Shown here in pieces: positions 48,433 to 64,000 of a stretch of DNA of 64,000 nt (the stretch's first letter is position 1; each line of letters begins with the position of its first letter). Made by a program: the position numbers and the translations under genes. The notes below the pieces were generated by a model, which ran no database searches, was not told where the DNA came from, and saw nothing but the letters and a program-made list of their open reading frames with translations. The stretch lies in NCBI RefSeq assembly GCF_900100255.1, contig NZ_FMTS01000001.1, positions 434,001 through 498,000 on the forward strand. The letters are read 5' to 3'. Source of the DNA: Asticcacaulis taihuensis (lineage in GTDB: Bacteria; Pseudomonadota; Alphaproteobacteria; Caulobacterales; Caulobacteraceae).

Positions 48433-49041
48433 ATGGGGAAGCCGTCTCGCATCGAACGCATCTACAGCGACCTAAAGGAGGTCCTGTTTTCCGGTCCGGT
48501 CCGTCCGAGCCAGCGCATCGATGTGGATGCCCTGGCTGAGCACTATCATGTCAGCACGATGCCGATCCGCCTGTTGTTGAATCGCATGGTCGGCGCGGGC
48601 GTGCTCGACGTCGTCCCCCACGAGGGCTATGTGATACCGGGTGCCACGGAGCGTCGCATCCGGGATGTGCATCGCTGGAATCAGAAAATCCTGATGCTGG
48701 CGCTGGAAACGGCGATGGACGATGACGTGCCGGCCGAGTTTCCGGAGTTGAGCCTCGACGCAGAAGACGTGGTTGCTGAAACCGAAGCGCTATTCCTGGC
48801 GATCGCCGATTTCAGCGACACTGGTGAGACTCGCCGGGCGATCTCCAATGTGAACGACCGCCTCCGGCCTATCCGGCGTCTGGACACCGGCGACCTGATC
48901 GACGTCGCCTCGGAAATCAAAGCCTTTCGAGAGGCCTGGCAGTCGCGCGACCTCCACACCTTGCACCGTCTCGTCTGGCAGTATCATGACCGACGGTTGG
49001 CCTTGGTCCCGCATTTTGTGGCCCTCGCCTATAGCCAATAG
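48433..49041 (+). CDS. GntR/FadR-type transcriptional regulator
   Basis: A 202-residue protein with an N-terminal winged helix of GntR type (SRIERIYSDLKEVLFSGPVRPSQRIDVDALAEHYHVSTMPIRLLLNRMVGAGVLDVVPHEGYVIPG-like pattern across residues 4-70) and an all-helical FCD-like C-terminus. Ligand and target unknown. It is the nearest plus-strand regulator to the lasso region, but several unrelated genes lie between. Confidence 0.8.
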   Translation: MGKPSRIERIYSDLKEVLFSGPVRPSQRIDVDALAEHYHVSTMPIRLLLNRMVGAGVLDVVPHEGYVIPGATERRIRDVHRWNQKILMLALETAMDDDVPAEFPELSLDAEDVVAETEALFLAIADFSDTGETRRAISNVNDRLRPIRRLDTGDLIDVASEIKAFREAWQSRDLHTLHRLVWQYHDRRLALVPHFVALAYSQ

Positions 49042-49065: not shown

Positions 49066-49701
49066 TTATGCTTGTGCACCGAGACTGCGCAAATAAGCGC
49101 AGACCATATCCGACAGCGCGTCAGCCTGTGCGCTGATTTCCGCTTCAGCGCGGGGGACCTCGGAAAACTCTCTGCCGATTGCACTCATAGTCGTGTTGAT
49201 CATACCGGCGACGCGATCGCGGTCGGCAGCGGTCAGGTCTGGCAGGATTTCAGCTATGAACCGTTCGAACAGCGGCTCCCCCGCCCCGCGAACCGCCTGG
49301 GCTTCCGGCGCATCCCTGTAGAGAGGCGCGGCGTCAGCGAGCGCGCCGCGTACCGCGGCTTCATCGCATTCCGACTGGATGAAAGCGCGCACTAGCGCCC
49401 GAAGACGTTCAAAAGGCGCCAATGCGTTGTCCCCCAACATGTCGCTCAATAAACCCGTGGTTTGTTGCCACTCCTCGCTCTGCAGGCGGAACAGGATCGC
49501 GGCCTTGTTTGGGAAATATTGATATAGCGATCCCACGCTCACCCCGGCCCGTTCGGCAACGCGCGCGGTGGTAAAGCGGGCCGCGCCTTCCTGCGCCAAA
49601 ACCTGAACAGCCGCCTGCAGGATGGCCGAAACCAGCTCGTTCGACCGGGCTTGTTTGGGCTGTTTTCGTGAGGAAATTCTGCGACTTGCCGGTTCTGTCA
49701 T
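49066..49701 (-). CDS. TetR family transcriptional regulator
   Basis: The ATG at 49701 gives 211 residues. HTH: FTTARVAERAGVSVGSLYQYFPNKAAILF, a textbook TetR motif, then a TetR_C-type ligand domain. Divergent from the methyltransferase gene, with a 13-bp palindrome in between, so it probably represses that gene and itself. Confidence 0.9.
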   Translation of the reverse strand: MTEPASRRISSRKQPKQARSNELVSAILQAAVQVLAQEGAARFTTARVAERAGVSVGSLYQYFPNKAAILFRLQSEEWQQTTGLLSDMLGDNALAPFERLRALVRAFIQSECDEAAVRGALADAAPLYRDAPEAQAVRGAGEPLFERFIAEILPDLTAADRDRVAGMINTTMSAIGREFSEVPRAEAEISAQADALSDMVCAYLRSLGAQA

Positions 49702-49733
49702 TGGCGGGCTCCGCAATGCGATTAGCGAATGCG

Positions 49734-49746
49734 ACGAATTATTCGT
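49734..49746. promoter_or_regulatory. Palindromic TetR operator candidate
   Basis: ACGAAT-T-ATTCGT is a perfect palindrome in the 86-base divergent gap between the TetR gene and the methyltransferase gene. Confidence 0.6.
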
Positions 49747-49787
49747 ATTTTCACTCCAACGCAAGTCCCTACTCGATGGAGCTATTT

Positions 49788-50444
49788 ATGAGTACTTTAA
49801 ACCAATCCCCCCTCGCCCCCCTCCTCGACACACTGTTCGCGGAGGCAGAAGCCGCCACCAGCCCTGCCCTGGCGCAGCTGCCACGCACGGAACGAGAGCG
49901 GCTGATGCAGAGCAAAACGGAATATCGCGATTTTTATGGCCTTTTGAAAGACCTGTGGTTGCCCGTATCGCGGCAGACGGGCGATCTGCTGTATATCCTG
50001 ACGCGCGGCACCGCCGCCCGCCACATTGTGGAGTTCGGCACCTCGTTCGGCATTTCCACCCTGTATCTGGCCGCCGGACTACGTGACAATGGCGGCGGTC
50101 GGGTGATCAGCAGTGAGTTCGAGCCGCAGAAAGTCGCCCGTGCGCGTCGCAACATGATGGATGGCGGCGTTTCGGATCTTGTCGAAATCCGGGAAGGCGA
50201 CGCCCTGGAAACCCTAAAGGACAACCTGCCGGACAGCATCGACTTGCTCGTACTTGACGGCGCCAAGTCGCTGTACACCGAGATCCTGGCTTTGGTTGAA
50301 CCGCGTCTCCGTCCGGGCGCCCTCATCCTGGCGGACGATGCGGACTTTTGTCCGGAATACCTCGCCCGCGTGCGTGCCCCGAAAGGCGGCTACATGTCGG
50401 TGTCCCTGTCGCAGGATATCGAGCTGTCCATGCGCGTCGCCTGA
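49788..50444 (+). CDS. Class I SAM-dependent O-methyltransferase
   Basis: The ATG at 49788 gives 218 residues. Family motifs: VEFGTSFGISTLYLAAGLRDNGGGRVISSEFEP (SAM site) and IDLLVLDGAKSLY (metal/substrate region), as in caffeoyl-CoA/catechol O-methyltransferase-like proteins. Substrate unknown. It is controlled probably by the divergent TetR gene and shares a strand with the broken epimerase gene 59 bases on. Confidence 0.85.
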   Translation: MSTLNQSPLAPLLDTLFAEAEAATSPALAQLPRTERERLMQSKTEYRDFYGLLKDLWLPVSRQTGDLLYILTRGTAARHIVEFGTSFGISTLYLAAGLRDNGGGRVISSEFEPQKVARARRNMMDGGVSDLVEIREGDALETLKDNLPDSIDLLVLDGAKSLYTEILALVEPRLRPGALILADDADFCPEYLARVRAPKGGYMSVSLSQDIELSMRVA

Positions 50445-50503
50445 CACCCTTCTCTCTCACTTCTCATGCAGCCGCAACTGGCTGTCTAATCTGGAGACTT
50501 TCC

Positions 50504-51370
50504 ATGCATATCTTTGTAACAGGCGCGACCGGCTGGGTCGGCTCCGCCATCGTCGCCGAATTGGTCGGCGCCGGTCATTCTGTCAGCGGCTTGGTCCGCA
50601 CGACCGACAAGGCGCCGTCACTGAGTGCTGCCGGCGCCCAGGTCATCCTGGGATCGGTCGATAACCACGGGACTTTGCGGGAATCGGTCCGCGCCGCGGA
50701 TGCCGTCATTCATACCGCCTTCAACCACGACTTTTCCAAATTTCACGACGGCATCGCCCAGGACTAGCGTACGATTGAGATCATAGGCGAAGCCCTCGCG
50801 GGCACGGACAAGCCGCTGCTGGTGACGTCCGGCCTGGCCGGTTTGCCCCGAGGCGCGGTGGAAACCGATCTGCCAAATTCCGCCGTCCCGCGGCAGTCGG
50901 AGCCGTCGGCCCGCCGCTTGGCCGAGGCCGGCATCCGCGCCGCGACTGTGCGACTTGCGCCCTCGGTTCACGGCATCGGCGACTGGGGCTTTGTGCCGAT
51001 GCTCATCCGCATGGCACGGGAAACGGGTGTGTCTGCCTACCCGGCCGATCATGACAATGCCTGGTCCGGGGTACATCGGCTGGACGCCGCCCGCCTCTAT
51101 CGCCTGGCGTTGGAGACCGGGGTCACGGAACCGGTTTATCATGCCGTGGCCGATGAGGCGGTCCCGTTCAAAGACATCGCGTATCTAATTGGCAAGCATC
51201 TTGACCTGCCGGTCGAACCCAGAGACCGCGCGCACTTCGGCTGGTTCGCCAATTTTGCCTTCGCAAGTATGGCGGCCTCCAGCGTCTTCACGCGCTTCGC
51301 TCTGGGATGGACACCGAAGGAACCCGGTCTTCTGTCAGATCTCGATCGGCCTGAATACTACCGACAGTAA
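50504..51370 (+). pseudogene. NAD-dependent epimerase/dehydratase, interrupted by an in-frame TAG
   Basis: Begins MHIFVTGATGWVGSAIVAEL, a classic extended-SDR NAD site. At codon 88 (50765-50767) a TAG follows HDGIAQD; the same frame then continues with 200 codons of good SDR sequence (LLVTSGLAGLP, RLAPSVHGIGDWGFVPMLI, WSGVHRLDAARLYRLALE) to 51370. No frameshift or other damage is seen, so this is a recent nonsense mutation, a sequencing error or a read-through case. The conserved Tyr-x3-Lys of active SDRs is also not evident. Confidence 0.85.
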
Positions 51371-51411
51371 CCTGAGCCAGGTCGGCAACAAGGACAGAAT
51401 TGATAATCGCT

Positions 51412-51440
51412 TGATCAGTAAATGATCAGTTTGGGATCAT
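51412..51440. promoter_or_regulatory. Three GATC-centred repeats at 11-base spacing before the lasso precursors
   Basis: TGATCAGTAAA, TGATCAGTTTG and GGATCATTTT start at 51412, 51423 and 51434; GATC cores are exactly 11 bases apart, i.e. on one face of the helix. The spacing suggests protein binding. The promoter for the lasso operon should lie in or near here. Confidence 0.4.
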
Positions 51441-51465
51441 TTTCGCGCAGGCTTACCGTCGGAAG

Positions 51466-51488
51466 GCCATGACTTTTCATGGCTTTTT
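51466..51488 (+). terminator. Intrinsic terminator or attenuator just before lasso precursor 1
   Basis: GCCATGA (51466-51472), loop CTTT, TCATGGC (51477-51483), then five T (51484-51488). The ribosome site AAGGAG (51501-51506) starts only 12 bases later, leaving no room for a promoter between. It therefore lies either in the 5' leader of the lasso mRNA or ends upstream transcription with a promoter overlapping it. Confidence 0.7.
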
Positions 51489-51512: not shown

Positions 51513-51653
51513 ATGACCAAGAACCAGCATAAGGCCGAAGACCTGATCGATCTCGGCAATTCCACTGTCGAAACCCGTGGCTCGGTGCCGGGCAAGACGC
51601 CCGACAACATCCAGCCGCTGCAATACCCGGCGTTCGGTCTGTCGGCCGACTAA
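51513..51653 (+). CDS. Lasso peptide precursor 1
   Basis: A 46-residue peptide too short for usual gene callers, with AAGGAG 6 bases upstream. The leader (22 residues) ends IDLGNSTVETR with Thr at -2, the residue required by lasso leader peptidases. The predicted core is 24 residues: ring GSVPGKTPD, where Gly1 would form an isopeptide bond to Asp9, then a tail containing QPLQY and ending GLSAD. This matches the astexin type (leader end ETR, Gly1, Asp9). Acidic C-terminus as in other isopeptidase-linked lasso peptides. Confidence 0.93.
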   Translation: MTKNQHKAEDLIDLGNSTVETRGSVPGKTPDNIQPLQYPAFGLSAD

Positions 51654-51661
51654 ACCCGCTT

Positions 51662-51691
51662 GCGGCATGCGCATCGCCGTGGGCATGCCGC
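51662..51691 (+). other. Hairpin between the two precursor genes
   Basis: GCGGCATGC (51662-51670) pairs perfectly with GCATGCCGC (51683-51691), 12-base loop. Only a short pyrimidine run follows, so it may stabilise or process the mRNA rather than terminate it. Confidence 0.6.
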
Positions 51692-51743
51692 TCGCCTTTC
51701 CCTTAAACCTGACGCCATAAACGTCAAAGCCTGGAGCATTCCC

Positions 51744-51884
51744 ATGCATAAGGTTATTCAAGATAGCGCGGCTTTCGTCGACCTCGGTTCCGCCACGGAC
51801 GCCACCAAGGGGTCCACGCCTGGAACCCGTCCGGACGGTACGCAGCCGCTGCAATACTTCATGGACGGCCTCGCCGCCGACTGA
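51744..51884 (+). CDS. Lasso peptide precursor 2
   Basis: A second 46-residue precursor, clearly a paralogue of the first. Leader ends VDLGSATDATK (Thr at -2). Predicted 24-residue core: ring GSTPGTRPD (Gly1 to Asp9) and tail with the same QPLQY motif, ending GLAAD. Ring positions 3, 6 and 7 and tail residues around the middle differ, so the two products should have different charges and perhaps different plugs. Gap to precursor 1 is 90 bases and to the B gene 62. Confidence 0.93.
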   Translation: MHKVIQDSAAFVDLGSATDATKGSTPGTRPDGTQPLQYFMDGLAAD

Positions 51885-51890
51885 TCGGTA

Positions 51891-51920
51891 ATGGCCCGAG
51901 CCTTGCGCCGGGCCATTTTT
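51891..51920 (+). terminator. Intrinsic terminator between precursor 2 and the B gene
   Basis: ATGGCCCG (51891-51898) pairs with CGGGCCAT (51909-51916), 10-base loop, followed by a T run to 51920. It would keep precursor mRNA in excess over B and C mRNA, a pattern described for other lasso operons. Confidence 0.8.
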
Positions 51921-51946: not shown

Positions 51947-52621
51947 ATGGCGTTAAGCCTGCGTCCGCAACTTCATTACTGCGTCGCAAATGGTCGCGTG
52001 GTCTTGCTCGACTTGGCCAAGGACCGATATTTTGCACTGCCCGACCCGCTAGATGAGGCCTTTCAGACCCTCACCGCGCGCGGTGGTTCTTTCGGAGACC
52101 ACACTACTGGTATTCGCAACCTCGTTGAGCAAGGCATTCTGACACAGAAATCCGACGTGACGGGGCCGCCGCACGCTCCGTCTCTTCCTCGCCCAGCGCA
52201 CAGTTTTGTTGACAGCCCACCCGCCGGATGGGTGAACCCCATTACTTTTCTCCAAGCGCTATTGGCGCAAAGACGTGCCAATGCGGACCATTCCGGCCTG
52301 ACGCTTCCACACTATGTGCGCCGCGTTAGCGACATGTTGGCGAAATCAGACGACGCACGGATTGAAGCGCCGTCAGCCCAAACCTTAGGGGCGCTGCGGG
52401 CATACCTTGCCACGCGCTGGCTGATCACTACACGAGACCAATGCTTATTGCAGTCGGCCACGCTATTCCAATTTCTGGCGCGTCGAGGGTGGCACCCGCG
52501 TTTTGTCGTTGCTGTGCGCATGGCGCCTTTCGCCGCACACGCCTGGGTCCAGTCCGGCGAAACGGTCTTGAACGATCGCCTCGATCATGTGCTCCCCTAC
52601 ACGCCGATATTGGTGCTGTGA
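51947..52621 (+). CDS. Lasso peptide leader peptidase B (B1-B2 fusion)
   Basis: A 224-residue protein. N-terminal PqqD-like leader-recognition domain (about 1-80; LRPQLHYCVANGRVVLLDLAKDRYFALP), then a transglutaminase-like Cys protease with triad Cys166 (CLLQSATLFQFL), His198 (HAWVQ) and Asp210 (LNDRLDH). It binds and removes the leader peptide. Its stop overlaps the C gene start by one base. Equivalent to astexin AtxB. Confidence 0.94.
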   Translation: MALSLRPQLHYCVANGRVVLLDLAKDRYFALPDPLDEAFQTLTARGGSFGDHTTGIRNLVEQGILTQKSDVTGPPHAPSLPRPAHSFVDSPPAGWVNPITFLQALLAQRRANADHSGLTLPHYVRRVSDMLAKSDDARIEAPSAQTLGALRAYLATRWLITTRDQCLLQSATLFQFLARRGWHPRFVVAVRMAPFAAHAWVQSGETVLNDRLDHVLPYTPILVL

Positions 52622-54333
52622 TGACCCGTCGCTATCTGGTTGTCCTCAACAAGACCGCTAACGATGTTCCCTTTACCGCGCCATCTGGCTTCATTCAGGT
52701 CCATCGACTCCGCAATGTCGTAGTTTGGGCTGACAATGCCACCAATGTCCTCGGGTTTGAAAGCGAAAACGCCATTGTCATCGGCCACCTGTTCCCGAAG
52801 GCGCATAATGCCGCTCCACTGCGGGAGCTGCCATGCGACGCCAGTCAGCAAATCACCCGCACGCAAGGGCAGGTTCTGATTGATCAGTATTGGGGCGGCT
52901 ACTGCTATTTCCAAATTGATAGCCCCGCGATGGGGCTTTTCGTCGTACGCGACCCGTCAGGCATGATGCCCTGCTATTGGCACGAGGGCGCCACGCATTG
53001 GGTGCTGGCGTCGGACGCCGAAACCCTCGCCAAGGCGCTAGGGCGCCGGCCGGAAATCGACTGGAGCATGCTGCGCCGGCATCTGCACGCCTACGATTTG
53101 CGATCCGCCCGAACGTGCCTAGAAAATGTAACCGAGGTGTTGCCCGGCCAACGACTGCATCTGACACCCACATCATCTACCGTTGAAACCTGTTGGTCGC
53201 CATGGGCATTCACACGCCCTACGCGGCCTGCGTCTCCGCAAGACCTGCGAGAGACGGTCGATGCATGCGTTCAGACGTGGGCGAATGCTTTCAGTAGAAT
53301 CCTCTTAACGGTTTCGGGTGGGTTGGATTCGTCGATCTGCACCGCTGCGCTCCGCGACGCTCCCAACTTGTACGCCTGCCTCACCATGACCACTGACGAA
53401 GCTGAGGGAGATGAGACGCCCTATGCGCGCCTGTTAGCTGGGACTTTCAATCGACGGCTGATTGAGGCGCGTCACGAGTTGAGCGACATCGACTTCACCC
53501 GTACGAGTTCCGGCCATCTCCCTCGCCCTGTCAATTATGCCTTAGGCCAAAGTGAGCTTCGTCACCGTCGCGTCCTGGCAGAAGCGGAAGGTCTCGATGC
53601 CATCTTCACCGGTGTGGGCGGAGATAATGTTTTTTGTCATGTACGATCTGCGACGCCTGTGGTCGATCGGCTGATAGCCCAAGGCATTATGGGCGCCTTT
53701 GCCGCGACCTTGGATATTTGCCGAATGACGGATGCCAGCTTATCCGAGGTCATTCAGGCGGCGCGAGAACGCAGAAAGCGTTCAGCGGCCTATACTTGGC
53801 ATGTCGACGATAGTTTCCTGACGGGCCAGATATCCTTAACGCTTTACCATCCATGGCTGGAATATCCCAGCGCGGCGCTGCCGGGCAAGGCCGTCCATAT
53901 TGCGATGCTGGAGCGGCTACAGGCAACGACCGACGGCTATGATCCAGCGACATGGCCCCAGCAGGTTAACCCTCTGGCCTCGCAACCCATTATGGAACTG
54001 TGCCTGGGCATCCCAAGTTGGCGCTGGTGTGCCGGAGGGAGAGACCGCTCGGTTGCTCGCGCGGCGTACTCGGATATCCTGCCGGCCGCGCTCATCAATC
54101 GACGGTCAAAGGGTGGCGCTAACAGTTTCGCGCACCAGATCGTCTCCCGGCGCCGCGAAGATCTAAGAATGTTCCTTTGTGCGGGCTTGTTAGCCGAGCA
54201 TCAGGTAATTGACGCGCGTAGTCTGGATGTCGCCCTGGCACCATCGCGCGACATCCCATTTTCAGAGCATTTACGTTTGCTGTTTTTAGCCGAAGCTGAG
54301 AGTTGGGCGCGCCATTGGATGTGTATCACCTGA
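52621..54333 (+). CDS. Lasso peptide cyclase C (asparagine synthetase-like)
   Basis: From the ATG at 52621, 570 residues. The N-terminal region resembles a glutamine amidotransferase fold but starts MTRRYL, with no Cys2, so it cannot use glutamine, as usual in lasso cyclases. The ATP PP-loop is SGGLDSS at 232-238, and GVGGDNVF follows further on. It adenylates Asp9 and closes the ring with the core N-terminus. Equivalent to AtxC. Confidence 0.95.
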   Translation: MTRRYLVVLNKTANDVPFTAPSGFIQVHRLRNVVVWADNATNVLGFESENAIVIGHLFPKAHNAAPLRELPCDASQQITRTQGQVLIDQYWGGYCYFQIDSPAMGLFVVRDPSGMMPCYWHEGATHWVLASDAETLAKALGRRPEIDWSMLRRHLHAYDLRSARTCLENVTEVLPGQRLHLTPTSSTVETCWSPWAFTRPTRPASPQDLRETVDACVQTWANAFSRILLTVSGGLDSSICTAALRDAPNLYACLTMTTDEAEGDETPYARLLAGTFNRRLIEARHELSDIDFTRTSSGHLPRPVNYALGQSELRHRRVLAEAEGLDAIFTGVGGDNVFCHVRSATPVVDRLIAQGIMGAFAATLDICRMTDASLSEVIQAARERRKRSAAYTWHVDDSFLTGQISLTLYHPWLEYPSAALPGKAVHIAMLERLQATTDGYDPATWPQQVNPLASQPIMELCLGIPSWRWCAGGRDRSVARAAYSDILPAALINRRSKGGANSFAHQIVSRRREDLRMFLCAGLLAEHQVIDARSLDVALAPSRDIPFSEHLRLLFLAEAESWARHWMCIT

Positions 54334-54357: not shown

Positions 54358-55170
54358 CTACGTGGTGTTCTCTGGTGTCGCTGGAGCAGGCAGTTCTGCT
54401 TTCGGTTTTGAAGCGGCCCGTTTCGGTACCACCGCATTACTCTCCGCAACAGCTGCGCTCAGCTTCTCCTTTCGGGCCGGCTCTATAAACGCGCGGTGTA
54501 TAAACGACTCTAGGACATCCATCATCGTCGAGATCTGGCTGCGGTCAGCAACCCAGCCCCTGTGCGCCGACGCGTTGCCTGCCTCTACCAGAAATTCCAA
54601 ATGATCCATGTCGACCTGACCGATATGGCCATCCTTCACGAGTTGATTCAATTTGTCCTTAAATGTCTGGTTTTCCGCGATGCCCAGGAGTTCAGAAGCG
54701 ATATCAAAGCACGTCCTGACGCCTATGCCCGCAAGCATGAACAGATCATTGTCGAGCGCAGTGTACAGTTCCCGCAAGGCTTTGGCGAGACGCGCTGAAT
54801 CCACTTTTGGAACGGCGACTTCCGTCCATAAGTCATCTATGGAATACCCCAGCCCATTAAGCCATTCTGGGGGTTTTCGTTTGGCCAAGGCTGGCCAATA
54901 GGCATTGGTTTCGTAGTGTTCTTCTACGGGCTCTCCGTCCTCATTGTGGCCATATGCCCGCTGATCTTCATCGCCATAAGCCGTTTGCACGAAGACGTGC
55001 TCGCATCCACGACAGGCCAGGATATACCATTTCTTGTACCAGGAAATGTAGTCATTCAGACCACGGCGATCGTTGTGAAAGCCGAGGACATCGCAATTTC
55101 GCATGCCTCCACACTCTGAACATTCGGCCTTGATCGATTGGCCTAGCTCAGATGCATTCGTGTCAGTCAT
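54358..55170 (-). CDS. DUF4145 protein with zinc-finger-like motif
   Basis: The ATG at 55170 gives 270 residues. Pairs CSECGG and CRGC look like a zinc ribbon, and the C-terminal half has the DUF4145 pattern (GVRTCFDIASELLGI, GNASAHRGW). The tail is Ala/Pro/Lys-rich. DUF4145 proteins occur next to restriction and defence genes, but their function is unknown. It sits between the lasso biosynthesis genes and the isopeptidase, where no such gene is needed, so it is probably an unrelated insertion. Confidence 0.8.
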   Translation of the reverse strand: MTDTNASELGQSIKAECSECGGMRNCDVLGFHNDRRGLNDYISWYKKWYILACRGCEHVFVQTAYGDEDQRAYGHNEDGEPVEEHYETNAYWPALAKRKPPEWLNGLGYSIDDLWTEVAVPKVDSARLAKALRELYTALDNDLFMLAGIGVRTCFDIASELLGIAENQTFKDKLNQLVKDGHIGQVDMDHLEFLVEAGNASAHRGWVADRSQISTMMDVLESFIHRAFIEPARKEKLSAAVAESNAVVPKRAASKPKAELPAPATPENTT

Positions 55171-55235
55171 AGTATCCCCCTCGCCGGTTGTGCGTTCATT
55201 TTGCGCAATCGCCCTCGGATAGCAACTGTTTGGCA

Positions 55236-55275
55236 AAAATGAACGGCTCCGCCGGATACGCGTACGGAGCCGTTC
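55236..55275 (-). terminator. Intrinsic terminator of the isopeptidase operon
   Basis: GAACGGCTCCG (55241-55251) pairs with CGGAGCCGTTC (55265-55275); on the minus strand ATTTTT follows. A second hairpin (CAGGTGCC 55276-55283 with GGCACCTG 55311-55318) lies between it and the isopeptidase stop. Confidence 0.8.
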
Positions 55276-55326: not shown

Positions 55327-57429
55327 TTAGCGTTTCAGCCTATGCCAACGCTCGTATTGGCGGGCTTTTGCTGGGTCGGGGTCTTCCCGCCCCTGTAACC
55401 AGAAGCCGAACCAGTCCACGGATCGTTGGTAGACAGCCAGGCGATGCTGAGGCTGCCATTTTACGTGGTACTCGTTCGGGAACACATAAACTTCGACTGG
55501 TTTACTCTGCTCGACCAGGGCTGTCCGCGCGGCCAACGCGTCGAGGTATTCCCGGTCGGACAACTGCATGAGCATTGGCGTGTCAATCTTGGCGGCGTTT
55601 TGCTCCAGAGAGATCGGTGCCCAGAAATGGCTGTCTCCTTGTGACAATGCCGGATAACCCATCTTCGCGAACCAAGTCCGCGTCGCGTCGCCGACCAACA
55701 CAGACATAGTGTCGGGTTCGCTGCAGCAGCTGCTCATGGCGACGGCGGCATAACGAGGATGATTTATAAGCGCAAATTGAGTGGTGGTCGCTCCGTCGCT
55801 CAAGCCGGTAAGGCCGACCTTGCTCGCATCGATCGTTCCCGTCGCGATTGCCGCATCGATCCCGCTGTCGAGTGCACTTTGAATGCTCCGGCGGTCGGCC
55901 CAGTCGGTCATATCGTACGCATTCAACTCATCGAAGGTCGCGACACCGTGAACGACACCCAGGCTTGCCGGTCTTTGGAAACTCAGAACCGCCATTCCAT
56001 TGGCTGCGAGAAGCTGGATCGGATACTCTTCACCAGTGCCGCCGCGTAAAAAGCCGCGCGACTCGTACTGAACCACGACCAAAGGGTGGATTTGTCCAGG
56101 AACATGATCAGGCGGTAAAACCAAATCACCCCAAGTCTGGATGCCGAAAGCATTTTTCCAATGCAAGCGTGTGACCTGCCCCAGTTCCAGGCTCGGCACT
56201 TCCGGATTTGGATCGTAGAGCGTCGCTACCTTGCCCGATGCCAAGTCTATGCCGACAATCGCCCGTGGACGGATACTGGTTTCGTGGCCGCAGACCAGTC
56301 CTTCGTTGGCCAAACTGCAGCCTATGAGGACGTCGGTGGTGGACAACAAGATCTCCGGGCGAGCCTGGCCAAATCGCCACCGCAGGAGGTCGGTGCGTTC
56401 GGTCTGCCAACCGGCTCGAAGTACGTAGACCTCGCGACCATCCCTGGACCACCAAAGACTTGAAACTGGCCCGCACACCTCTGCCAAACAGTTCGCAACT
56501 CTACCATCGTGCCAGCGAACGTGTAACGTCTTCGCCGAGAACAGGTTTTTTGGATCGTCGGCGACAGTCCAGGCTGCCTGGTCATTTGGCCCGGGGTAGA
56601 AGGCGCTAGCTTCGGCCGGCTTACCCGTCACGGGCGGCGCGCTTAACATTGTTTTCTCCTGAGCGGTGGCAGGCCTTGATGCCCCGGTGACCACGTCGAT
56701 CACCGTAACGTCTATGTCGATGGGTTCACGAGGCACCGGTACGCTTCCGCTGACCGGCGCAAAGCGTTCGTCATACAGGTATCCCTGCAGCCCTTCCTTC
56801 TCGATGTCGGCTTTGGCGACGGCGAGCGCCGGGCGGGCACTGACGATCAGGCCCGTGCCATCCGAGGTCCAGGCCAAATCGTCGACGTCGTAGGCCAGGC
56901 GGGAAACCGCGTTCCCGCCGGTGCCGTCGGCCTGAGCTCGCCACACCTGTGTAATACCCCCATCCCGTCGCAGATAGGCGATCCACTGTCCGTCAGGCGA
57001 CCAGTGCGGCGTGATCGTCGGCATAGGACCGGGAGAGGTGAACGCCGCGAAGCCGAGTTGACTATAGGTGGCGTGGAAAAACTCGCCGCCCCTGTCGATG
57101 CGAACCGGGGCTGATTTTCCATCAAGCCGCAATGTGTACATTTCCAGACAGTAGCTGTTGGTGGCGATATTGGCCTGGCGCTGTTGGAAAGCGATCGATT
57201 GTCCATTCGGTGAAACCGACAGGATTTGCGCGTGGATGTCTGTATTGGCGACCGGGCCGATGTCCCTCAGTTCAATCAAGTCTTTGGCCGTGACGGTGCG
57301 AGATCGCACCGGCAATGCCGACGCCTCCCGTTGACGACAGTCGTTTGCCGCCGGGTCGGCGTGCGAAACCGTGACAGTCAGCGCGCCAAACCCGAAAAGA
57401 CTTATGAGAAGGCAAGCTCGGCTTACCAT
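55327..57429 (-). CDS. AtxE-type lasso peptide isopeptidase
   Basis: A 700-residue secreted S9 prolyl-oligopeptidase-family hydrolase: signal peptide to about residue 24, an N-terminal beta-propeller, and an alpha/beta hydrolase with Ser544 in GLSDG, Asp625 in LSDREYL and His655 in NEYHVKWQ. Spacing of the triad closely follows AtxE2 (Ser527, Asp610, His638). It opens the isopeptide ring of the cognate lasso peptides. It overlaps the receptor stop by 7 bases. Confidence 0.93.
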   Translation of the reverse strand: MVSRACLLISLFGFGALTVTVSHADPAANDCRQREASALPVRSRTVTAKDLIELRDIGPVANTDIHAQILSVSPNGQSIAFQQRQANIATNSYCLEMYTLRLDGKSAPVRIDRGGEFFHATYSQLGFAAFTSPGPMPTITPHWSPDGQWIAYLRRDGGITQVWRAQADGTGGNAVSRLAYDVDDLAWTSDGTGLIVSARPALAVAKADIEKEGLQGYLYDERFAPVSGSVPVPREPIDIDVTVIDVVTGASRPATAQEKTMLSAPPVTGKPAEASAFYPGPNDQAAWTVADDPKNLFSAKTLHVRWHDGRVANCLAEVCGPVSSLWWSRDGREVYVLRAGWQTERTDLLRWRFGQARPEILLSTTDVLIGCSLANEGLVCGHETSIRPRAIVGIDLASGKVATLYDPNPEVPSLELGQVTRLHWKNAFGIQTWGDLVLPPDHVPGQIHPLVVVQYESRGFLRGGTGEEYPIQLLAANGMAVLSFQRPASLGVVHGVATFDELNAYDMTDWADRRSIQSALDSGIDAAIATGTIDASKVGLTGLSDGATTTQFALINHPRYAAVAMSSCCSEPDTMSVLVGDATRTWFAKMGYPALSQGDSHFWAPISLEQNAAKIDTPMLMQLSDREYLDALAARTALVEQSKPVEVYVFPNEYHVKWQPQHRLAVYQRSVDWFGFWLQGREDPDPAKARQYERWHRLKR

Positions 57430-59957
57430 GACCGGCCAACCGTCAGGCTGACGAAACGGCCCATGATCGATGCGTTGGTACTGTCGAAGTTCAGCCCGGG
57501 GTAAGATGCCGGACTTACTGTCCGGGGTGGATCCTTGTCAAACAGGTTGGAGGCGATCACCGCGACCTTCCATCCGGGCCTACCCGACCCGGCGCCAAAA
57601 TCATAAGCCAGGTTTACATCAAACGTGGTCCAGCTAGCGATTTCGGCAGTTGGCATAACCCCCGTGTCGTCTTCCGATGCGATGAAGTTGACAATCCCGG
57701 TCGCCGACAGACCACGATCGAGATAGCTCAGTCCGCCCCGCGCCTTGAATTTAGGCGCGTTGAAAATCGTACCGGACAACTTCGTCTCTGGGCTAGTCGA
57801 GATCGTTTTTTGCCGCAAATCAAGCCAGGACCCGTTGGCGAACAAATTCAACGTCCGACTGCCTGCCAGAGTAACCGTCTGCCGGTAGCTCAAGTCGAAG
57901 CCTTTCACCGTCTGGGCGGATGCGTTGGCGTAACGGTTGTGCAGGATGGCCACTATGGTCGCTGGGTCGTACGGCGCCCCTGTCGAATTATAGACGGCGT
58001 CGACATCGGCCATCAGGGCCGCCTGAGTGGACGAGCTGGGATTCCAATCTACGAACGGTGCATATAGCGGGTCACTCAATCCCAATACATAGTTAGAGAT
58101 CGGCTGCAAAACGCGATCTGTGTAGTCGATATCAAACCAAGTGGCAGATATCTTTAAAGAACGGATTTTCGCAGGACTGTAGTCAAAGCCGAACGTTTTC
58201 GATGTCGCCCGTTCTGGCTTGAGGTCGGGATTGCCACCCCATTCGAGGAACCCGTTGCCCGCACCGCTGTAACCCAGCCATACGCCCGGATAGATATACA
58301 GCGTGTGGGGGTCATACATCTGAACGAAGGACGGCGCCTTAAAGGAGGTGCCCCACGTCGCGCGGAGTGTCAGATCATCCACCGGGACGTAACGCAGTCC
58401 GACACGGGGATTGGTCGTTGTGCCGAAGTCGCTATAGGTCTCGGTTCGCGCCGACAGGCTGAGTTCTACTTCTTTTAGACCCACGCGGTCGGTCGATGGC
58501 GTAACCAAGGGCGCCAGGGCTTCGACATAGGCATAGGTGACATGTCGCGAGACGTCCTGCTCGTCACCGGATGCGAAGTGTTCCTGGCGGTAGCCGCCGC
58601 CCACGGCCATCTTCAAATCGCCGGTGGGCAACGCTAAGGCTGTACCGTCTGCCGTCACTTCGGCATATTGGGTGTCGTTTTCATATTGCGCGACGCCTGT
58701 AATGCCATAGGCCGGGTACGCAAACCGTTGACTGTTTCGACTGCCGGCGGTGGCGGCGGTTGCCCGGACCTTCCAGTCCGCCCCGAGCCGGGTTTCGAAT
58801 GTCAGGGCCGAGCTGTAGTTGGGCGTGTAGACGGAGATATCGCTCTTGGCGCTGGTGGTGCTGTAATGGTAACTGCCTTCTGCCGTGCGGTCGCTGACCA
58901 TACCATCGAACAGAAGCGTGCTGCGGTCATTGATGTCCCAGCCGCCAGCGACAAAGAGGGAGTGGCGCTTGTTGGATTGAAGCAAGTTGCCGTCGGCGGG
59001 TACAGCCGATGCAAACGCGCGGTCGGCCGCCAGGACGGGATCGGTCTCGTCGATTTCCGCATTCACGAGCAAATAGCTGGATTTGCCGGACCATCCTTGC
59101 AACAGGCTCAGGAAACGCTGCGCCCCTCCCCCTTGCGCGCTGTCTCCCAACCGCGCAACCGCCTCGCCGCCGCTATAGTTTTTTCGGAGGATAAAGTTGA
59201 CTACACCGGCCACCGCGTCGGAGCCGTAGATCGCCGACGCACCATCCGGAACCACTTCGATGCGCTGAACTGCCGCCAACGGAATGCCGGAAATGTCGCT
59301 GCCTTGGTAAAAGGAGTCGGCTGCGAGCCGATGCCCGTTCAACAAGACCAAAGTGGCGTCGCTGCCAAGACCGCGCAGGTTGACAGTCGAGGCATTGGAG
59401 ATGTTCTGATTGGCGAGATTGGTGGCGCCGGCGGCAATGACGCCTGGATTCTGACCTCCCGCGAAGTTTTCCGGCAGGCTGCGCATTACGTCACCGATCT
59501 GGGCGTAGCCGGAGACTTCAATGTCCTTGCGGGAGATCGTATGAACCGGCGACGTAGGATTTCCACCGCGGACGTGCGACCCCGTAACGATCACTTCGGT
59601 CGGCCGCTCAGCAGCCGCTTCCGGCTTGGACACGACCCGCAGCGTAATGGTGTCTTCCGTGGTTCCTGCAACCTCCAGGCCCGAATTCACCAAGATCAAG
59701 GTTAGCGCCTCTTCGATCGTGTAGGTGCCCTTAAGCGCGGCGGTGGTGGTGTGGGAAGCGGCGTCGTATGGAAACAGAATATGGAGTTGCGCTTGGCGGG
59801 CCAGGTCGTTGAGCGCGGAAGCAGTGCTCTCTGCCGGAATATCCAAAGAGACCTCGCGGCTGTCGGCGAAGGCGCAATTACCGGAGAGCAGAGTTGCGCC
59901 CACTATGAGCGCAATGATGGAGGTCCGGATGCCGGGCCTCGGACGTGTGTTGTGCAT
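57423..59957 (-). CDS. TonB-dependent receptor with STN signalling domain
   Basis: An 844-residue outer-membrane receptor. Signal peptide, then an STN domain (SLDIPAESTASALNDLARQ, about 34-105), plug domain (from TEVIVTGSHVRGG; VVPDGASAIYGSDAVAGVVNFI) and a 22-strand barrel ending in W. The STN domain indicates FecA-like signalling to FecR. Ligand is probably the lasso peptide, by analogy with the astexin cluster, to bring it in for cleavage. Confidence 0.93.
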   Translation of the reverse strand: MHNTRPRPGIRTSIIALIVGATLLSGNCAFADSREVSLDIPAESTASALNDLARQAQLHILFPYDAASHTTTAALKGTYTIEEALTLILVNSGLEVAGTTEDTITLRVVSKPEAAAERPTEVIVTGSHVRGGNPTSPVHTISRKDIEVSGYAQIGDVMRSLPENFAGGQNPGVIAAGATNLANQNISNASTVNLRGLGSDATLVLLNGHRLAADSFYQGSDISGIPLAAVQRIEVVPDGASAIYGSDAVAGVVNFILRKNYSGGEAVARLGDSAQGGGAQRFLSLLQGWSGKSSYLLVNAEIDETDPVLAADRAFASAVPADGNLLQSNKRHSLFVAGGWDINDRSTLLFDGMVSDRTAEGSYHYSTTSAKSDISVYTPNYSSALTFETRLGADWKVRATAATAGSRNSQRFAYPAYGITGVAQYENDTQYAEVTADGTALALPTGDLKMAVGGGYRQEHFASGDEQDVSRHVTYAYVEALAPLVTPSTDRVGLKEVELSLSARTETYSDFGTTTNPRVGLRYVPVDDLTLRATWGTSFKAPSFVQMYDPHTLYIYPGVWLGYSGAGNGFLEWGGNPDLKPERATSKTFGFDYSPAKIRSLKISATWFDIDYTDRVLQPISNYVLGLSDPLYAPFVDWNPSSSTQAALMADVDAVYNSTGAPYDPATIVAILHNRYANASAQTVKGFDLSYRQTVTLAGSRTLNLFANGSWLDLRQKTISTSPETKLSGTIFNAPKFKARGGLSYLDRGLSATGIVNFIASEDDTGVMPTAEIASWTTFDVNLAYDFGAGSGRPGWKVAVIASNLFDKDPPRTVSPASYPGLNFDSTNASIMGRFVSLTVGRSW

Positions 59958-60061: not shown

Positions 60062-61021
60062 CTATCGCGTCAGATTGATCACCTGTCCGTCGTCAGTTGC
60101 GCGGATACCGAAGCTCTCGTTTAACCCCCGCAAGAAACCCGAAGCGTTATGGACGTTGAAGCGTCCGCCGAGACGCACCCCTGCGATGGATGGATCTTTG
60201 ATGACAATCTTGCGCGACAGGTAGCGGTTGAACTCGTCCACCACCATTGACAGCGGCTGGCCGGTAAACACCATTTCGTCAGATTGCCAGGCGGTCACTG
60301 TCTGCATCGTCTCGTCCGACAGCGCGCGCACCGTTCCGCCGTCTTTGCCAGCAAGTACCGATTGGCCGGCTGCCAGGGCCAATTTGCCCGTCCCGCCAAT
60401 ATGTTCGGCGAGGATAACAATGCCTGGTCCCTCTATCACCGTGACTTCGACCGCTTGCCCTTTTAGACGCGCATTGAGTTTCCCCGCCAAACCCATAATG
60501 ACCCGTCCCTGAGCATGGAGCCGCCAGGGGCGATCTCCTGCCGGCAGGTTTAGTGACACCTCCCCGCGCTCAAGCCATATTTCTCGCGACGCGTTGTCGT
60601 AACGCCAGGCGATACGCGAGTCAGTGTTCAGGTCAATATGTCCGCCATCCGGCAGAGCCACATTTGCCCGGCCGCCGACAGTCGTTTCGGCGTGCACCCG
60701 TCGATTCGCCAAAGCTACAAAGCTGCCTCCGCCGACGATCACGGCAGCGACGCCGACCAGTGCCCCAGCCAGCCAACGCCGCCTGTCTACTACCCGAACG
60801 GGCCCCTCGAAGTCATCGGCTTCGCTATCAATGTGACCCTCGGCTAAGCCAAACGTCGCATCAGTGCCCACCATACGGGCAAAGGCGGAAGCGTGACGGG
60901 GATCGGCATCCCGCCAGCGCTCAAACGCCTTCTGGTCAGCCGTGCCCAGATCGAGCCGCGTATGCCATGCGGCCGCGGCTTCGAGGATGTCGTTCAGGTC
61001 TTTGTCGAGGGCGTCAGTCAC
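60062..61021 (-). CDS. FecR-type anti-sigma/sigma regulator
   Basis: A 319-residue protein from a GTG at 61021. The N-terminal DUF4880 region (WHTRLDLGTADQKAFERWRDADPRHASAFARM), a single TM helix (about 85-107), the FecR domain (DGGHIDLNTDSRIAWRYDNASREIWLERGEVSLNL) and a C-terminal secretin-like STN-partner part (LSRKIVIKDPSIAGVRLGGRFNVHNASGFL). It relays receptor occupancy to the sigma factor. Confidence 0.93.
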   Translation of the reverse strand: MTDALDKDLNDILEAAAAWHTRLDLGTADQKAFERWRDADPRHASAFARMVGTDATFGLAEGHIDSEADDFEGPVRVVDRRRWLAGALVGVAAVIVGGGSFVALANRRVHAETTVGGRANVALPDGGHIDLNTDSRIAWRYDNASREIWLERGEVSLNLPAGDRPWRLHAQGRVIMGLAGKLNARLKGQAVEVTVIEGPGIVILAEHIGGTGKLALAAGQSVLAGKDGGTVRALSDETMQTVTAWQSDEMVFTGQPLSMVVDEFNRYLSRKIVIKDPSIAGVRLGGRFNVHNASGFLRGLNESFGIRATDDGQVINLTR

Positions 61022-61076: not shown

Positions 61077-61949
61077 TCAATCAGAGATGGAAGAGTTAGG
61101 TGCATTCTCTTTGTCAGAGACAATCGCGGCCAGGCCTTTCCCCACATCGTCCGCTTCCAATAGTTTATTGAGCGCGACCATGCCACGGGTCAAATGGATC
61201 TCCACGCCCTTCAGACTGATCCCCATACGTTTGGCAATTTCATTCCCAGACAGGCCATCAATCTTGCGCATGACCATCACCCGCCGACTTTTCGGCGGCA
61301 ATTTGCTGATGGCCATCAGGACACGACGCAGGTGGTCTCGATCCGCCGCGAAGGCGCCTGGGCCCGGCGCCTCGTCTTCGACGTCGCCGCCGCCCATCCC
61401 GGGCTCAAGCCGCGCCAGTGGCGCCACCCGATGCTTGGCAACGAAGTTACGCGCCAGGTTCAGGACGGACTGACGGACATAGGCTTTGGGATTGTCTATG
61501 GTGCGCCAGCGGTCATCGACCATGAGTTGGGTATAGGCGTCATGGACCAGATCGCGGGCCGCACTGTGCGATCCGACCAAGCGCTTTGCCACGGTCAGAA
61601 ACAAGCCTTCGTGCGGCGAGACGCAATCCCGGAACCAGCAATCGACCTCGCGAACCCAGCCCGGTCGTCGCTCACCCTCGCCCATCGTCGGGTTGAAATC
61701 CATGAAGAAATAGCGGTCGGCGACATCCAGTGCGACCGCGATGAATGCCAGCCGGCGCGGACCAATCTTGAGGGTTCCCGCCTCCATGGCGGTCAATTCA
61801 CCAAAGCTCAGGCCCAGTGCATCCGCGAGCCAAACCTCGGACATTTGCAGCATGATCCGGCGAGTTCGCAACCGTGCGCCCACATGCCGGTCCAATGCGC
61901 CCACCGCGCGGGCATTCATATAAAGCTGTTCAACCTGATCGGCGTCCAT
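61077..61949 (-). CDS. FecI-type ECF sigma factor with N-terminal HTH-like extension
   Basis: A 290-residue protein, about 110 longer than FecI. The first ~90 residues look like an XRE-type HTH (GARLRTRRIMLQMSEVWLADALGLSFGELTAMEAG). Region 2 follows (VGSHSAARDLVHDAYTQLM, about 130-150) and region 4 at the end (LPPKSRRVMVMRKIDGLSGNEIAKRMGISLKGVEIHLTRGMVAL). It should direct transcription of the receptor and perhaps the lasso genes when FecR signals. The HTH-sigma fusion is unusual. Confidence 0.9.
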   Translation of the reverse strand: MDADQVEQLYMNARAVGALDRHVGARLRTRRIMLQMSEVWLADALGLSFGELTAMEAGTLKIGPRRLAFIAVALDVADRYFFMDFNPTMGEGERRPGWVREVDCWFRDCVSPHEGLFLTVAKRLVGSHSAARDLVHDAYTQLMVDDRWRTIDNPKAYVRQSVLNLARNFVAKHRVAPLARLEPGMGGGDVEDEAPGPGAFAADRDHLRRVLMAISKLPPKSRRVMVMRKIDGLSGNEIAKRMGISLKGVEIHLTRGMVALNKLLEADDVGKGLAAIVSDKENAPNSSISD

Positions 61950-62418: not shown

Positions 62419-63315
62419 ATGTCACGTGCTCTTATTAACGACCGGATTGATCATTTTCGCGATTTTGGAATTTGGCCTCGGGTTCAAGAGTTGAACGCTG
62501 AACAATGGCTAGGAAATTTCGCAGAACACGAATTGTTCATTGCAGAAAGACTACTTTCCCACTTTACCTATTTTAACCGTACAATGACTGATGCTTTACT
62601 GAAGCAAGCAATCCAAAACTTTTTGACTAGCAAATGGCTGGTTGCCGATTTTGGTCAGCCGCCCTCATCAGCTGATTTGTCTTCGGTTCGATTTGTAGTT
62701 AGCGAGGGCGAAGATCCAAATGCGACTGACAGTGGAAATTTATTCGCACGGAAGTTACGTGACATAATTCGCATCCCTGAAGTCTACATACGGACGCCCG
62801 AGAAGGCATTAAGGGAAGCTTCTGCCGCTAAGCACTTCGTGTTCGTCGACGATTTTGTGGGCAGCGGCAATCAATTCATTGCGACTATCGAAAGGCAATA
62901 TTCAAATACTGGAAAATATTCATCTTTCGAACAGCTGCTTGCGACGCCGGGCTATTCGATTTCCTATTGCCCATGCGTAGCCACAGCATATGCGCAGCAT
63001 CAACGAATTGCGGTCCGCTTCCCAACGATTAATTTATTCCCAGCACACCTGCTAACATCAAGTCACAACTGTACACTACCAAGCTCACGAGTGTGGCACG
63101 GAATGTCCTCCGGCGACTTGACGACTGCATTGTCGTCTTTGAGAGCCATTTCTCTCCGTGCAGGTTTTTCAGAGGATGATGGTGGCCAAGACTCGTGGCA
63201 CGGCTTCCATAGATTGGGCCTCTCCCTTGCTTTTGATCATGGGATTCCTGACGCAAGCCTCCCAATCTTTTTCTCCGAACGAAACGGCTGGAAGCCATTA
63301 ATAGGGAGAGCATAA
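62419..63315 (+). CDS. Phosphoribosyltransferase-like (PRTase-CE type) conflict protein
   Basis: A 298-residue protein. FVFVDDFVGSGNQFI (Asp144-Asp145 then a Gly-rich loop) matches the PRPP-binding loop of phosphoribosyltransferases. No nucleotide-salvage enzyme family fits the rest. The stop overlaps the next start (TAATG) and the next gene is an AAA ATPase; this pairing has been described in predicted prokaryotic conflict systems. Base composition is clearly lower in GC than the neighbours, suggesting recent transfer. Confidence 0.75.
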   Translation: MSRALINDRIDHFRDFGIWPRVQELNAEQWLGNFAEHELFIAERLLSHFTYFNRTMTDALLKQAIQNFLTSKWLVADFGQPPSSADLSSVRFVVSEGEDPNATDSGNLFARKLRDIIRIPEVYIRTPEKALREASAAKHFVFVDDFVGSGNQFIATIERQYSNTGKYSSFEQLLATPGYSISYCPCVATAYAQHQRIAVRFPTINLFPAHLLTSSHNCTLPSSRVWHGMSSGDLTTALSSLRAISLRAGFSEDDGGQDSWHGFHRLGLSLAFDHGIPDASLPIFFSERNGWKPLIGRA

Positions 63316-64000
63316 TGCCGACCGACTCCAACATCGCCGAAAAGCTAGAGCAATTGTTTGGGAGCTTCAGAGCAGAATCGTTACGGGATGATCTCTACCC
63401 ATTATTCAATGAGCCTGAATACTTTTATTATCTGATAGCGCCCAAGTCATGCCTACTTGAAGGCGGGCGTGGATCTGGAAAGACAACCGCGTTGCGCTGC
63501 ATGACTTACGAGGGACAAGCAGCACTTACCAGCAACGACTTTTCGGAACCGAAATTTGTTGGCCTATACACGAAAATTAATACGAATACGGTAGCCTCTT
63601 TTTCTGGTCCTGAGTTAAATATAACTTCATGGCAAAGGTTCTTCGGCCATTTCATCAATTTGATGATATGTGAAGAAGCGTTGATTTATATCAAGTGGCT
63701 TAAAGATTACCGTAAAAGTAATCACCTAGATGCGAAGATGAATTATACGCGCGTGGGCCAGGCTCTTGGATTCGCAAACGTTACAACTCTAAACGACTTA
63801 TTCAACGCAATAGACCACTCCAGAATGAGTCTGGAGATATATATTAACAATTTCGGCGATTCAAAGCCAACAATTTCGCCCCTTCAAACGCCCGTCAATA
63901 TACTTATGGAAGAGATGCGGGAACTAGATGGGCACAAAGACACTAACTTCTTCATAATACTTGATGAATACGAAAACTTTCTAGATTACCAGCAAAAAAT
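63315..64000 (+). CDS. ORC/CDC6-like AAA ATPase (3' partial)
   Basis: An open frame of 228 codons runs from the ATG at 63315 to the window edge without a stop. Walker A is EGGRGSGKTT (residues 49-58) and Walker B is FFIILDEYENF (212-222). The protein begins with a short region (LFGSFRAESLRDDLYPLFNEPEYFYYLIAP) and has no signal peptide or TM helices. It overlaps the PRTase-like gene by one base, so the two work together. Low GC. The C-terminal part is outside the window. Confidence 0.8.
   Translation, partial: MPTDSNIAEKLEQLFGSFRAESLRDDLYPLFNEPEYFYYLIAPKSCLLEGGRGSGKTTALRCMTYEGQAALTSNDFSEPKFVGLYTKINTNTVASFSGPELNITSWQRFFGHFINLMICEEALIYIKWLKDYRKSNHLDAKMNYTRVGQALGFANVTTLNDLFNAIDHSRMSLEIYINNFGDSKPTISPLQTPVNILMEEMRELDGHKDTNFFIILDEYENFLDYQQK

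Follow-up and report, generated by a model that had tools for sequence, protein, structure and literature searches.

Two short open reading frames lie in tandem in a 64,000-nucleotide stretch of the Asticcacaulis taihuensis genome (contig NZ_FMTS01000001.1, positions 434,001 to 498,000; this whole stretch is referred to here as the window, and coordinates are counted from its first letter). Does each encode a distinct lasso peptide, and what do the surrounding genes and related clusters suggest about how such peptides are produced and used? We think it highly probable (about 0.88 for the explanation as a whole) that these genes, A1 and A2, are lasso precursors giving rise to two class II peptides of the astexin/benenodin (subterisin) family, predicted to be threaded macrolactams and served by the cluster described below.

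Two tandem precursor genes

51513 to 51653, + strand: lasso precursor A1, 46 codons, leader MTKNQHKAEDLIDLGNSTVETR, core GSVPGKTPDNIQPLQYPAFGLSAD
51744 to 51884, + strand: lasso precursor A2, 46 codons, leader MHKVIQDSAAFVDLGSATDATK, core GSTPGTRPDGTQPLQYFMDGLAAD

A first-pass annotation had proposed two 46-codon precursor genes here, and both are present, each with a 24-residue core. The features it had listed are readily seen: a threonine at position -2 and a glycine at core position 1 (T-R before G in A1, T-K before G in A2), a common QPLQY motif at core positions 12–16, ring differences at positions 3, 6, and 7, and the C-termini GLSAD and GLAAD. Its proposed Gly1-Asp9 ring also agrees with the sequences, as D9 is the sole acidic residue at core positions 7–9 in both, and is the ring we predict; two distinct lasso products are expected from sequence, with predicted monoisotopic masses (M) of 2453.22 for A1 and 2476.13 for A2. 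Only its description of the genes as being of 'unannotated length' has no clear meaning, the lengths being ordinary (43–51 amino acids across the 30 precursors compared below).

A1 scores 39.0 bits against the Pfam Subterisin family PF24178 (cut-off 27) and falls narrowly under the cut-off of the NCBIfam benenodin family NF033522 (32.5 bits, cut-off 33), while A2 is below both cut-offs (18.8 and 16.7 bits, respectively); by score, A1 is thus a member of PF24178 and A2 lies below it. The two cores are identical at 15 of 24 positions and the leaders at 7 of 22. Because A1 exceeds the PF24178 cut-off and the A2 core shares 15 of 24 residues with it, these are not chance reading frames. There is no further subterisin-family match at E≤10 in the 3.97-Mb assembly, and a PDB sequence search with both cores returned no relevant relative. 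The annotation also held that the cores differ from those of the astexins, caulosegnins, and benenodin. We found neither core in the main texts of the literature searched or among the known lasso peptides tabulated in PMC12427821; the peptides therefore look new within those sources, in a family that is already known.

An astexin-type gene cluster

48433 to 49041, + strand: GntR-family regulator, probably of the lasso cluster (PF00392, 35.0 bits, cut-off 27)
51947 to 52621, + strand: B, a leader-binding RRE fused to a leader peptidase (family models)
about 52618 to 54333, + strand: C, asparagine-synthetase-like macrolactam cyclase (PF00733, 62.8 bits)
55327 to 57429, - strand: lasso isopeptidase (NF033523, Atxe2-family isopeptidase, 802 bits, cut-off 400)
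57423 to 59957, - strand: TonB-dependent receptor (PF00593, 133.5 bits; PF07715, 65.7 bits)
60062 to 61021, - strand: FecR anti-sigma factor (PF04773, 45.2 bits)
61077 to 61949, - strand: ECF sigma factor with an N-terminal helix-turn-helix (PF08281, 53.5 bits)

A1 and A2 are followed by the fused RRE-protease gene B and the cyclase gene C, which are convergent to the isopeptidase, TonB receptor, FecR, and sigma factor genes; family models match each of the B, C, isopeptidase, and receptor genes that the annotation had noted nearby, and the six genes from B to the sigma factor stand in the published order. The receptor, FecR, sigma factor, and GntR genes of an astexin-type cluster are all present. 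That the cluster is of this type, as the annotation had recognized, is further indicated by the NF033523 match, by AtxE2 as the best PDB match of the isopeptidase (E 2.5e-154), and by the genus-mates that encode astexins 1–3 and benenodin-1. S544, E627, and H655 of the isopeptidase align with S527, E610, and H638 of AtxE2, giving a Ser-Glu/Asp-His triad. A structure model of B contains both the lasso RRE and a papain-like domain, the latter with a Cys-His-Asp protease triad; B has no PDB relative by sequence and a relative by fold only, Foldseek returning none at E≤0.001. C is the one lasso-type cyclase in the genome, the other two PF00733 matches being weak. We found no ABC transporter among the cluster proteins, which are the part of the window that was scanned for one.

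The signalling genes carry some additional features. The STN signalling domain of the receptor scores 22.5 bits, under its 28.4 cut-off, and is likewise sub-threshold in five of the six sister receptors scanned. In the sigma factor, the N-terminal Cro/C1-type helix-turn-helix (HTH_3) scores 21.2 bits, below the cut-off of 23. Of the six sisters scanned, L073 is likewise under the cut-off for this domain and the other five (L068, L072, L074, L082, and L083) exceed a Pfam cut-off for it; several other sister sigma factor reading frames look too short to include it. A distance of 2.5 kb, containing other genes, separates the GntR gene from A1; the closest sisters of this regulator (67–69% identical) lie beside the lasso clusters of two other genomes, G406 and G416. 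A GntR-like regulator ahead of the precursor is part of the published architecture (PMC9266682).

Several neighbouring genes are not of lasso type. A DUF4145 protein (54358 to 55236, - strand; PF13643, 44.9 bits) is encoded between C and the isopeptidase; scanning the 23 lasso loci gave no match to it, and it is probably a passenger. A TetR gene, an O-methyltransferase gene, and an SDR-like gene (49066 to 51370) separate the GntR gene from A1, unlike in most sisters, in which the regulator adjoins the precursor; the SDR-like gene, so called by eye from its glycine-rich start, has an in-frame TAG at 50765–50767, and the part scanned has no Pfam match. At the far end (62419 to 64000), a PRTase-CE protein (PF24390, 151.6 bits; PADLOC PRTase_III-A, 64 bits) is immediately followed by a reading frame that resembles a P-loop NTPase (a weak Mad8 match) and runs off the window, and these are possibly a defence or conflict gene pair.

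Sister clusters in the genus

A search with C in 25 genomes of the genus gave 28 matches in 17 of them, of which we kept the 21 with E<1e-50, the window included, and dropped the seven weakest (E 2e-8 to 7e-5), which are asparagine-synthase-like. The 20 sister clusters, whose C proteins are 29–46% identical to that of the window, were taken with about 20 kb each, and a Sphingomonas locus (L037) was added; with L035 and L036, which are repeats of L068 and L069, this makes 23 loci scanned. B, C, and the receptor were seen in all 23, the isopeptidase in 20, FecR in 16, and the sigma factor in 15, and because the last two are seen in only part of the loci a signalling role is not general. A GntR gene like that of the window lies within 3 kb in 18 of the 20 sister clusters.

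All 21 fetched clusters contain precursors, giving 30 precursors in 22 clusters when the window is counted; reading frames distant from B that fit the loose precursor motif by chance were excluded by eye, and the start of a frame with several candidates was likewise picked by eye for its better Shine-Dalgarno sequence, which generally meant the start furthest downstream. Two or three precursors are found in six of the 20 sister clusters. By identity with the sequences in Table 1 of PMC12427821, three of the 20 encode astexins and one encodes benenodin-1: genome G402 has astexin-1 in one cluster and astexins 2 and 3 in another, A. currens also encodes astexins 2 and 3, and G399 encodes benenodin-1. 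That table leaves off the last five residues of benenodin-1, and the isolated peptide is described as lacking five tail residues (PMC13352647).

Core position 1 is a glycine in all 30 cores, and the first acidic residue at positions 7–9 is at position 9 in 16, position 8 in eight, and position 7 in six. The C-terminal residue is an aspartate in 27 of 30 and there is a glycine at position -5 in 21 of 30, showing that GLSAD and GLAAD are an ordinary family tail; GLSAD is also the exact C-terminus of astexin-2 (PMC12427821).

Relationship to known lasso peptides

The astexin-2/-3 cluster of Asticcacaulis excentricus, which encodes AtxE2, belongs to the same genus and likewise has two precursors with 24-residue cores, G1, and D9, and astexin-2 shares its GLSAD tail with A1. 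The isopeptidase and receptor of the window are 41–42% and 49–50% identical, respectively, to those of two astexin-2/-3 clusters, but C is just 43–44% identical, the loop is NIQPLQ in A1 and GTQPLQ in A2 as opposed to SVSGQ, and FecR and sigma factor genes, present in the window, were not seen in the two astexin-2/-3 loci. The benenodin-1 cluster of Asticcacaulis benevestitus is alike in leader type and gene order (isopeptidase 45%, receptor 53%), but differs in that one precursor was found, with an acidic residue at core position 8 and another core. The rings also share Pro-Gly and Pro-Asp at positions 8–9 with capistruin (GTPGFQTPDARVISRFGFN) and paeninodin (PMC12427821). The tails of those two peptides are unrelated to the A1 and A2 tails. 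To our knowledge their clusters have no isopeptidase, and the likeness of the rings is probably convergent.

Constraint on the mature peptide in sister clusters

To avoid choosing by core, cluster pairs were selected by cyclase identity; the three with C more than 65% identical (89, 76, and 67%) give five precursor pairs, the same five that we had picked by eye. The leaders of these pairs have 83 identical codons, 13 synonymous changes, and 23 nonsynonymous changes, while the cores have 85, 30, and just one, respectively (Fisher p 8.8e-8 against the leaders). Astexin-3 is the clearest case, with all 24 core residues kept through 12 synonymous changes and 13 of 25 leader codons changed in meaning; in the astexin-2 pair the leader is unchanged as well. 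Adding five pairs from other families, which were picked for similar precursors and so are biased, and two of which share one locus, gives 24 synonymous and 36 nonsynonymous leader changes against 43 and three in the cores (p 4.3e-9). Because core codons change almost only synonymously and leaders have many nonsynonymous changes, the codon comparison indicates that the mature peptide is under constraint in the sister pairs, the nearest C to that of the window itself being only about 45% identical. The next cluster pairs (C 61% and 52% identical) have differing cores, which suggests that cores are held and then replaced. Between A1 and A2 there is only a trend, with seven synonymous and nine nonsynonymous core changes and three and 15, respectively, in the leader.

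That cores stay fixed between species while the cyclases diverge by 11–33% and the leaders change points to a conserved partner for the whole mature product, its tail as well; the adjoining receptor would be the simplest candidate. The biological role of isopeptidase-type lasso peptides has been called enigmatic (PMC9266682).

Hairpins behind the precursor genes

51658 to 51695, + strand: 3′ hairpin after A1, -25.4 kcal/mol, z -3.5 (55 nt after stop)
51889 to 51920, + strand: 3′ hairpin after A2, then a T run, -22.5 kcal/mol, z -2.3, stem ATGGCCCG/CGGGCCAT

For all 30 precursor genes, the first 55 nt past the stop codon contain a stable fold, with negative z values (-1.3 to -5.1). Its mean energy is -24.4 kcal/mol, compared with -15.2 for 90 background genes of the same loci (p 1.7e-8), and 29 of the 30 precursors but 31 of the 90 background genes reach -18 kcal/mol or lower. 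By eye, most of these hairpins have no long T run, although that of A2 does. The astexin-1 operon is already known to have a hairpin, since Table 2 of PMC7549694 includes its removal among strategies for production. Putting a ribosome-binding site in place of the stretch that separates precursor and B is likewise a published means of increasing yield (PMC6092494 and PMC7549694).

A covarying stem-loop ahead of the first precursor

51411 to 51439, no strand: three TGATCA/GGATCA repeats, putative regulator site (by eye)
51431 to 51436: possible -35 TTGGGA, overlapped by these repeats
51454 to 51459, + strand: putative -10 box TACCGT (TAnnnT in 17 of 21 genus clusters)
51466 to 51483, + strand: 5′ hairpin GCCATGA-CTTT-TCATGGC, a covarying helix in 21 clusters, at the putative mRNA 5′ end

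We aligned positions -75 to +6 of the first precursors of the 21 genus clusters, omitting L037, whose best hairpin is -1.0 kcal/mol (L037 and L083 were omitted from the alignment of B). The hairpin begins 6–7 nt after a -10-like box in all 21 rows, while its distance from the ATG varies from 17 to 29 nt; a consensus promoter scan gave no sigma-70 match at the putative -10. The helix is paired in 93.2% of 147 cells, five pairs are changed on both sides compared with 1.8 in shuffles, and the covariation score is 0.325 compared with 0.176, with none of 500 shuffles reaching any of the five measures and slid controls reaching at most 50.7% paired, three pairs, and a score of 0.172; related rows inflate these covariation counts. 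RNAalifold, unaided, predicts six of the seven pairs, the seventh being mismatched in nine of 21 rows. Among the 126 cells of the six inner pairs there are eight one-sided departures, seven of them G-U and one a mismatch. Between -65 and -14, the best hairpin reaches -7 kcal/mol or below for 17 of 22 first precursors, compared with 17 of 91 genes of the background set (Mann-Whitney p 7.5e-8).

Two other roles for this region were considered and set aside. As to Shine-Dalgarno sequestration, the site is more paired than in shuffles over the 22 first genes (mean unpaired probability 0.23, compared with 0.36; Wilcoxon p 1.5e-4), but this does not hold in the window (0.34 compared with 0.28, with 72% of 60 shuffles at or below) and is not seen in eight later genes (0.41 compared with 0.36); moreover, the pairing arm is probably not transcribed, because by eye it overlaps the putative -10 box. 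For upstream reading frames starting from the hairpin ATG, the frames by eye vary among clusters.

Some further elements were noted by eye. The second precursors of L067 and L069 have upstream hairpins of their own, TGAGCC[CAGG]GGCTCA and TGAGCC[TTCG]GGCTCA. Among the 21 upstream regions, TGATCA-like repeats are also present in L071 and L073, whose GntR proteins are 67–69% identical to that of the window, and in L079, L082, L084, and L085 repeats of about 11 bp (for example TTATAATCGGATTATAATCGGATTATAA) lie right before the putative promoter and change from clade to clade; these are possible sites of the cluster GntR regulator.

In the A. taihuensis genome the 5′ hairpin is the only match to its covariance model (R1) at E≤0.1. 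Over 398 genomes of the order there are matches at this threshold in 10, four of them genus genomes used in training and six others. Four of the six (in G064, G104, G129, and G233) are directly before an independently found subterisin-family precursor; the match in G098 precedes an unrelated 225-residue reading frame, and that in G330 has no clear gene. Subterisin-family matches occur in 69 of the 398 genomes, and most such precursors therefore have no detectable R1 match at E≤0.1. Among 26 precursor loci from other genera, 10 have an R1 match at E≤1, in every case immediately ahead of the precursor, and the other 16 and L037 have none; since R1 includes the Shine-Dalgarno sequence and start codon, the weakest of these 10 matches lean on them. 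Three loci in training-genus genomes (L008, L009, and L018) were excluded from this test. By eye, one family in other genera keeps GCCATGATCCCCATGGC exactly and another has stems like TGCCGTTG[TTTT]TGACGGCG, with some loci, L015, L020, and L022 among them, showing little or no hairpin. No Rfam family scores over its cut-off, the two sub-threshold matches near the genes being chance ones, and a search of the lasso-peptide literature, several primary papers of which lay outside it, found no description of a conserved 5′ hairpin.

On balance, and with limited confidence, we favor the view that the lasso precursor mRNAs of the Caulobacterales carry an undescribed cis-acting RNA, a covarying 5′-terminal stem-loop whose position would be fixed relative to the promoter instead of the start codon, and which would have its counterpart in a hairpin after each precursor gene. 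By analogy, the 5′ hairpin most likely shields the mRNA 5′ end: a 5′ hairpin appended to bla mRNA stabilizes it, and such hairpins impede RppH conversion and RNase E entry, as in the ompA and papA cases (PMC3997798). Like those stem-loops, the window hairpin is near a (putative) mRNA 5′ end; unlike them, it is covarying, stands before lasso precursors, and is known here from sequence.

A proposed pathway and its alternatives

With the precursors, enzymes, receptor, and regulators identified by sequence and the hairpins as conserved or stable folds, we infer the following scheme. The RRE of B would bind the leader and its cysteine protease would cut before Gly1; C would then close the ring about the threaded tail by linking the amine of Gly1 with the side chain of Asp9, yielding two 24-residue lassos with a loop (residues 10–15) above the ring and Tyr16 as the likely steric lock. 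The peptides would exit the cell by some route and be bound and re-imported by the TonB receptor, which may also pass a signal on by way of FecR and the sigma factor. They would be linearized by the isopeptidase, presumably reading the common loop QPLQ; isopeptidases are said to read the loop region (PMC9266682), which is common to A1 and A2. The 5′-terminal hairpin and the hairpin behind each precursor probably protect the mRNA and so provide an excess of precursor over enzymes, and together would give short, long-lived precursor messages.

The main alternative to an RNA element is that the 18 bp before A1 act at the DNA level, as a dyad to which a repressor would bind at the start site. The fixed spacing of 6–7 nt from the putative -10 box is what such a site might show, as repressors often sit close to the -10 box, and 18 of 20 sister clusters have a GntR gene no more than 3 kb away. 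We nonetheless consider it doubtful, since the seven G-U departures to one mismatch in the six inner pairs are tolerated by RNA, whereas a DNA dyad has no reason to prefer them (a ratio weakened by kinship among the rows), and CCATG/CATGG is mostly retained in the element as the identity of nearby GntR proteins drops to 26–47% and the upstream repeats change. As regards the peptides, A2 could be a paralogue that has been drifting and has lost its maturation or expression, leaving A1 as the only source of a lasso; its scores below the Pfam and NCBIfam cut-offs and its leader, just 7/22 identical to that of A1, are consistent with this. It is quite improbable, however, as A2 retains the DLG and T-x-G signatures, D9, QPLQY, the G-L-x-A-D tail, and a 3′ hairpin. 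The greater identity of the two cores (15/24) than of the leaders also argues against drift but is suggestive only; among five other paralogue pairs core identity is clearly above leader identity in three and about equal or lower in two.

Methylated lassos are known, and the O-methyltransferase gene (49668–50444) lies about 1 kb upstream on the same strand, so that methylated products could be imagined. This is very improbable: the gene is found here and in no other of the 25 genus genomes, and with its position between GntR and A1, beside the TetR gene and the SDR-like gene with its in-frame stop, it looks like a passenger insertion. We also regard it as improbable that the peptides are antibacterial weapons and not self-recognized signals or scavengers. 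Bacteriocins diversify fast, whereas these cores are held between species while the leaders change, and the cluster proteins scanned include no ABC exporter. Astexin-1 does have narrow-spectrum activity, but it is the exception, the other known isopeptidase-type lassos having no antimicrobial activity (PMC9266682).

Implications

We thus return to A1 and A2 as precursors of two probable lasso peptides that enlarge a known family, although the comparative facts on core constraint and on the hairpins are more useful than the new members themselves. The conserved 5′ hairpin offers a way into the control of production as well as a model with which to search for such precursors. If the precursor messages do carry a cis-acting RNA, it would either govern how far precursor exceeds the enzymes or act as the target of an RNA-binding lasso regulator.
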